Below, piece after piece: positions 20,457-20,628 of a DNA stretch of 43,536 nt (positions are counted from its first letter, which is position 1; every line of letters begins with the position of its first letter). The position numbers and the translations under genes are program-made. Where the stretch lies: positions 1 to 43,536 of the forward strand of contig QZJP01000020.1 in NCBI GenBank assembly GCA_003599345.1, given 5' to 3'. The notes under the pieces are model-generated. The model had not been told where the DNA came from. It ran no database searches and worked only from the letters and a program-made list of their open reading frames with translations. This DNA comes from Bacillota bacterium (lineage in GTDB: Bacteria > Bacillota > Sulfobacillia > UBA995 > UBA9673).

Positions 20457-20628
20457 TGGCTGGCGGGGCGGCGTGGTAGCGCCGGGTCGCTTGGGCGGCA
20501 CCGCAAGCACCATGAAGTCTCTACCCAAGCGCGCGTAAGGACGTAGGGTAACCGGGTGCTTAGGGTGGCAAGGAAAGGCCGCCTCAACAGAGTGGGAGCC
20601 GGAGGGGAAACCCGGCCCCCGCCAGCCA
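20457..20628 (+). ncRNA. TGGCTGGCG-bounded RNA module 1 (172 nt)
   Basis: TGGCTGGCGGGG (20457-20468) and CCCCGCCAGCCA (20617-20628) form a perfect 12-bp terminal helix. Inside are CGCTTGGG/CCCAAGCG, a possible pseudoknot pairing AAGCACC with GGTGCTT, GGTGGC/GCCGCC closing an A-rich loop, and a hairpin with a GAAA tetraloop near the 3' end. No gene is credible here. The compactness and tetraloop suggest a folded functional RNA. It has no tRNA T arm and does not match a class I recognise. Confidence 0.55.

Follow-up and report, generated by a model that had tools for sequence, protein, structure and literature searches.

We identified a family of small structured RNAs, well supported by sequence comparison, in which a closing helix of free sequence and two hairpins are predicted to enclose an exchangeable interior. 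The 172-nt element at positions 20457-20628 of our window, a whole contig of 43,536 nt from an 82%-complete MAG, is probably a diverged member of this family. As the best explanation, we propose that the element belongs to a mobile-element RNA family acting in trans, most likely as a decoy or antagonist of host RNA-targeting factors, and we give this reading a probability of about 0.45.

The window encodes a tyrosine integrase, a repressor-like gene, a PD-(D/E)XK nuclease, Rad52, a replication-initiator-like protein, a gpA-type terminase and a P22-like portal. Judged by this gene set, it is a temperate phage or prophage, and an IMG/VR contig of 44,414 nt has the same sequence across the module region. 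Within the early region, the 172-nt element sits right of the repressor, which is placed divergently.

The frame of the 172-nt element

The helices and hairpins named in a preliminary description of this stretch could all be located in the sequence of 20457-20628. A 5′ arm (TGGCTGGCGGGG, 20457-20468) is the perfect complement of a 3′ arm (CCCCGCCAGCCA, 20617-20628), and together they make a 12-bp closing helix on the + strand, as are the hairpins, the interior and the other modules of the window. The 5′ hairpin (CGGCGT-GGTA-GCGCCG, 20469-20484), assigned from the fold with the frame imposed and from the alignment to model R1, occupies the place of the family's GCGUG-GCGAGAUGA-CACGC hairpin without keeping the consensus loop. 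The 3′ hairpin (20598-20616), assigned from the sequence and the R1 alignment, can be read as GCCGG-N9-CCGGC or as GCC/GGC plus GGG-GAAA-CCC. It abuts the closing helix and does not keep the consensus loop GGNAGGA, and its GAAA-capped part (20604-20613) matches the position of the conserved 3′ hairpin of related elements. Between the two hairpins, the variable interior (20485-20597) holds a GGTGGC/GCCGCC hairpin (20564-20569 with 20578-20583) and two candidate pseudoknot stems, CGCTTGGG/CCCAAGCG (20488-20495 with 20524-20531) and the AAGCACC/GGTGCTT stem that crosses it (20505-20511 with 20555-20561). No homologue was seen for this interior.

The stretch as a whole folds at -89.4 kcal/mol (z = -2.83), and none of 200 shuffles was equally stable. 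Perfect stems of at least 12 bp arose in 2 of 1000 shuffles, and imposing the closing helix and both hairpins came at no cost (-89.3 versus -89.4 kcal/mol). The compact fold with a pseudoknot that had been proposed for the element does not rise above chance: H-type pseudoknots with 8- and 7-bp stems occur in 74 of 1000 shuffles, and the interior folded alone has a z of -0.70. The nested fold favors the second pseudoknot stem (-89.4 kcal/mol) over the first (-84.1 kcal/mol). What lies beyond chance in the 172-nt stretch is its outer frame, that is, the 12-bp helix and both hairpins. Three ORFs of at least 80 aa overlap the element and have no PHROGs match, and a scan of 19300-21100 for promoters and terminators found none.

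A family with a common frame

Viral contigs were scanned for the 3′ hairpin with its shared loop, which yielded 83 stretches, many of them with one shared architecture, and a strict finder identified 34 unique members of 105-296 nt. The consensus runs from a closing helix of free sequence through a 2-nt linker, the hairpin GCGUG-GCGAGAUGA-CACGC, the variable interior, a single A and the hairpin GCCGG-GGCAGGA-CCGGC back to the closing helix. The near-duplicate loci L288, L323, L332 and L352 were omitted by a 100-base uniqueness rule, and the 3′ hairpin is invariant because it served as the search pattern. A 5′ hairpin and a closing helix accompany 39 of 85 real anchors, compared with 107 of 20000 random ones and 1 of 109 control hairpins that share the stem but differ in the loop.

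Pairing was assessed at fixed offsets, with the arms set from two loop motifs, no selection on pairing and 1 of the 35 loci found by the model. The closing arms pair at no fewer than 7 of 8 positions in 31 of these 35 loci versus 47 of 1190 swapped arms. For the 5′ hairpin, the corresponding test is weak because the stem letters are conserved: at least 4 of 5 positions pair in 31 of 35 loci and in 751 of 1190 swaps. In a 32-row alignment, all 8 closing pairs and all 5 pairs in the stem of the 5′ hairpin show two-sided changes. L019 (misaligned by a 3-base loop insertion) and L357 (nearly a repeat of L294) were omitted from this alignment; its rows were chosen for pairing, so the fixed-offset test is the cleaner evidence. 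Together, these comparisons show a fixed frame, pairing in the predicted closing helix and exchange of the interior.

Relatives and membership of the 172-nt element

The first 20 bases of the element recur exactly in three IMG/VR contigs, namely a near-identical contig (L021), L020 and L022. In the latter two, the 20-mer opens elements with the same closing helix, other interiors and a GCCGG..CCGGC 3′ hairpin abutting the helix. Nineteen of the 20 bases also begin an element on C8, another contig of the same MAG, which matches R1 at 61.9 bits (E = 1.1e-12) and whose 3′ arm differs from that of the 172-nt element at one of 11 compared bases. In L205, an element located behind a portal gene shares this 5′ end. 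Against R1, L020_A scores 30.5 bits and the 172-nt element itself 13.1 bits (hit 20459-20626, E = 0.0043 in 1 kb with filters off); the latter is absent from the R1 list at E ≤ 10 over 226 kb with default filters.

The element shares its ends with the accepted member C8, its closing helix follows the 3′ hairpin without a gap, and it contains GGCGTGG, the opening bases of the consensus 5′ hairpin. Its loops depart from the consensus, with GGTA (GGUA) in the place of GCGAGAUGA / GCNANAUGA on the 5′ side and AGGGGAAAC in the place of GGNAGGA on the 3′ side. A copy of this kind may represent a subtype or may be decaying. BLASTN with 19950-20830 gave no match in named phages, and among 201 genomes C8 was the only further real element, the rest being short stretches that included some T-arm matches. 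In a pattern scan of genome contigs (at least 118 stretches), the complementary arm appeared in module layout, among the loci examined, only in modules already known. L024 was rejected as a chance match.

Exchange of the interior

Interior lengths range from 46 to 228 nt. The phages L286 and L294 have long flanks that are 88-94% identical where aligned, and both ends of their modules align, with 37 bases 100% identical on the 5′ side; their interiors, of about 66 and 79 nt, are not alignable. Interiors fold with a mean z of -0.84 versus -0.41 for control segments, and 5 of 35 fall below -2. We rejected the idea that the interior is in general a folded cargo, most interiors folding no better than shuffles. 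The long interiors at L295:319-552 and L310:7753-7988 are alike in parts (GGTCAACCGAGCT, ATCGGGTGCTACAGCC), possibly as an interior subtype. L306, with its near-copy L323, is the only family member called as enclosing a tRNA, and the call has a two-base anticodon.

Further modules in the window

Four further closing-helix modules, A1, B0, B2 and T, are present in the window, and two of them enclose tRNA-like RNAs. Module A1 (19922-19987) joins the closing helix TCGTCGATGGCG/CGCCATCGACGA, also present in L020, to the consensus 3′ hairpin GCCGG-GGAAGGA-CCGGC, whose loop agrees with GGNAGGA. The A1 region matches R1 at 26.3 bits (E = 0.00056 over 226 kb), with the 5′ part of the model placed upstream of the helix. 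B0 (19990-20048) is a short element with a mismatched stem that neighbors the 172-nt element and begins with the same 22 bases. In B2 (20665-20799), the closing helix TGGCTGGCGGC/GCCGCCAGCCA surrounds a tRNA-like RNA (20677-20766; 34.2 bits against the Rfam tRNA model) in which 26 nt replace the 7-nt anticodon loop, a replacement that may reflect either a longer anticodon arm or the insertion of a hairpin. Module T (36438-36583), behind the portal gene, has a 13-bp closing helix GTGGCTGGCGAGT/ACTCGCCAGCCAC around a tRNA-like RNA (36472-36543) with a 4-nt loop standing for the anticodon loop, and it shares TTAAACGAGGCGT..ACGCCTA with the interiors of L306, L308 and L340. At the homologous site in L205, where the portal is 58% identical to that of the window, the module has no tRNA.

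Closing helices tend to be reused within a phage, as with GGCTGGCG in four modules of the window (T being the fifth module) and CAGGCGACC, found twice in L341. In the window as in L020, the closing helix TCGTCGATGGC immediately precedes a B-type element. Sequences like TGACAACCGA shortly before and like GACCTTTGA after B-type modules were also observed in the window (19885-19989), L020 (1070-1110), L022 (near 10745) and L033 (18479-18740).

The window also encodes a minimal RNA ligase (phrog_14301, 14640-15200), and in the L020 phage a 75% identical homologue follows the modules at a distance of 0.75 kb. No further homologue was found in the other loci examined or in 298 related genomes beyond its own. 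The ligase was rejected as a general partner of the modules, its homologue having been found in the L020 phage only.

Genomic setting and spread

Of 33 viral members, 5 have a tRNA gene predicted by ARAGORN no more than 50 nt away, compared with 54 of 6600 placements drawn at random within their loci; in the tRNA-distance comparison, the 49 anchors treated as non-members include near-copies of members. For only 6 of these 33 is there a tRNA gene within 1000 nt, and the majority of copies lie outside tRNA islands. Of 50 modules examined, 12 have a tRNA gene at most 1500 nt away; each of the 12 agrees in strand with its nearest tRNA, a count that left out L380:10479-10609 (a weak match of 25.5 bits on the minus strand) and weak second matches in L341, L365, L368 and L369. 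This co-directionality, together with the tRNA-like RNAs enclosed by the L306 module and two modules of the window, lends some support to the earlier suggestion that the element is a structural partner of tRNA mimics. The 11-kb contig L380 carries ten tRNAs along with three strong modules. The nearest tRNA is tRNA-Trp(CCA) in 5 of the 12 module-tRNA neighborhoods (L302, L308, L378, L380 and L381).

R1 matches occur in 14 of 299 relatives, two of them short matches, and in 12 of 154 genomes of the window's class. One short match, in genome G204 (L373, about 1501-1551), lies in a CRISPR array (repeat GTTGCACCGCTTGACTCGATGACGAGAGGACTGAAAG) as a spacer that matches the family's 5′ hairpin; judging from this spacer, a host from the same phylum was once exposed to an invader that carried the family RNA. 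Module neighbors include an anti-restriction protein, Doc/Fic-like genes, a SocA-like antitoxin domain and Tn3 and Mutator-type transposases, a predicted gene content fitting mobile elements. In genome G132, an RRXRR (IscB-type) gene (L378:4149-5591) lies about 2.5 kb from a module, and nothing suggests that the module serves as its guide RNA.

In three sets of genomes from other phyla, searched with strict filters and ten candidates scored per genome, R1 was found in 0 of 247, 0 of 246 and 0 of 249, counts that do not establish absence. The tRNA-island idea was followed into named plasmids and phages, where two modules and a single 32-nt probe gave weak matches only; the four best-looking plasmid places have no R1 match.

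Comparison with known RNAs

Scanning the module loci against Rfam 15 returned no family other than tRNA. At gathering score, 20457-20628 matches neither tRNA (RF00005), a threshold that the neighboring B2 reaches, nor GOLLD, ROOL, skipping-rope or any other Rfam 15 family. At E ≤ 10, only chance-level scores were obtained on 19400-20900 and the L294 module beyond the tRNA-like RNA at 20677-20766. The preliminary description had placed the element among structured RNAs outside known classes, and that view holds up, there being no Rfam match and same-frame relatives in other phages. Coding conservation does not speak against it either: the interiors are not conserved between relatives, so no reading frame is conserved. 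Literature searches, judged by titles and abstract openings, found no paper on this architecture.

Sections of one paper describe GOLLD and ROOL as phage or prophage RNAs of unknown function, often near tRNA islands, and GOLLD as universally conserved in its 3′ region and less so in its 5′ region, with tRNAs sometimes in the linker region (PMC12286853). On that description, the family resembles them in its phage setting near tRNA islands, whereas they are several hundred nucleotides long and form cages and the family is ~100-300 nt with three conserved helices.

The frame also recalls the topology of tRNA, with its closing stem, 2-nt linker, 5′ hairpin and, without a linker, a 3′ hairpin with a 5-bp stem and a 7-nt loop, and some modules enclose tRNA-like RNAs. 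Unlike tRNA, it often has a closing helix longer than 7 bp and has no regular CCA end, and no family copy is itself called a tRNA; the family loops presumably lack the D-loop and T-loop consensus. Skipping-rope RNA has conserved ends and a middle of variable length. Its model (RF02924, 80 positions) was included in the Rfam library scanned and matched no module locus, nor the window stretch and the L294 module at E ≤ 10. Resemblances of parts of the element to a CsrA site and a T-box were dropped; the motifs are not conserved, and the Rfam T-box model has no match.

Discussion

From the comparisons above, we infer that the family RNA would be transcribed within phage operons and tRNA islands and released as a separate, stable RNA, held shut by its closing helix and acting in trans. 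A common partner would bind the fixed frame, and the interior would be the part in conflict with the host, a conflict that would drive its fast change. Such an RNA would most likely be a decoy or antagonist of a host factor acting on tRNA or RNA, for example a tRNA-cleaving defense nuclease. We favor a decoy on two grounds: the tRNA-like RNAs held by B2, T and L306 have anticodon loops that could not be used, and tRNA islands are in turn regarded as serving antidefense; parts of one study treat clustered tRNA genes as a putative antidefense system (PMC12803027). Drawn from context and hypervariability, this role is proposed with moderate to low confidence.

It is rather unlikely that the modules are instead cis-acting mRNA elements, closed intergenic structures that stabilize a polycistronic message, insulate genes or control downstream translation. 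The four early modules of the window do lie between ORFs on the strand of the flanking genes, and several modules, such as those of L359, L340 and L295, end shortly before a ribosome-binding site. However, the frame is also found directly between tRNA genes (L306, L307, L308, L318 and L380) with no common downstream gene, the L205 copy sits behind a portal gene, and nothing in a cis role would call for exchange of the interior. Also unlikely, by our estimate, is a non-functional relic that has retained nothing but its closing helix, itself a by-product of duplicated ends. The loss of the consensus loops, an interior that folds no better than shuffles and the mismatched stem of the neighboring short copy B0 would all suit such a relic, but the 12-bp helix is perfect, both hairpin stems are kept, and L022 and L020 likewise have an intact frame without the consensus loops.

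We consider a DNA-level element very improbable, whether MITE-like or attC-like, in which inverted-repeat ends would serve a recombinase in mobility or recombination and the interior would be cargo. The modules do have inverted-repeat ends with an exchanged interior, and several same-ended copies can occur in one phage; integron attC sites similarly have a closed stem, a variable middle and several copies per element. Yet attC sites carry conserved R and L boxes at their ends, whereas no letters are conserved in the closing arms of the family. Between phages, the sequence of these outer arms is free to differ while their pairing is kept, the reverse of a recombinase site, and the conserved loops belong to hairpins inside the arms. 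The 12 of 12 strand agreement with tRNAs argues in the same direction, as does the count of 8 G-T versus 2 A-C in paired columns, which is biased by selection. Least probable of all is the ribozyme suggested earlier, which would cleave itself or ligate its ends, perhaps into a circular RNA joined by the ligase at 14640-15200: the closed ends and the ligase genes would suit it, but we found no evidence for it; no Rfam ribozyme family matches 20457-20628, no conserved interior sequence could be a catalytic core, and the ligase is near modules in only two phages among the loci examined.

Our preferred reading remains an RNA that acts in trans against host factors. A widespread view of phage tRNA islands is that they repair or outbid the tRNA-cleaving defenses of the host. 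More tentatively than for the element itself, we suggest that the family might be an uncatalogued class of mobile-element RNA, with a fixed two-hairpin frame, a closing helix of free sequence and an exchangeable, fast-evolving interior that is sometimes a non-decoding tRNA mimic, baiting or blocking host tRNA-targeting defenses from tRNA islands and early operons. A small RNA with so clear a frame would be far easier to express, delete and swap than the giant GOLLD and ROOL RNAs, and the L286/L294 pair, with the same frame and neighbors and a different interior, would offer a natural experiment on the host factor that the interior faces.
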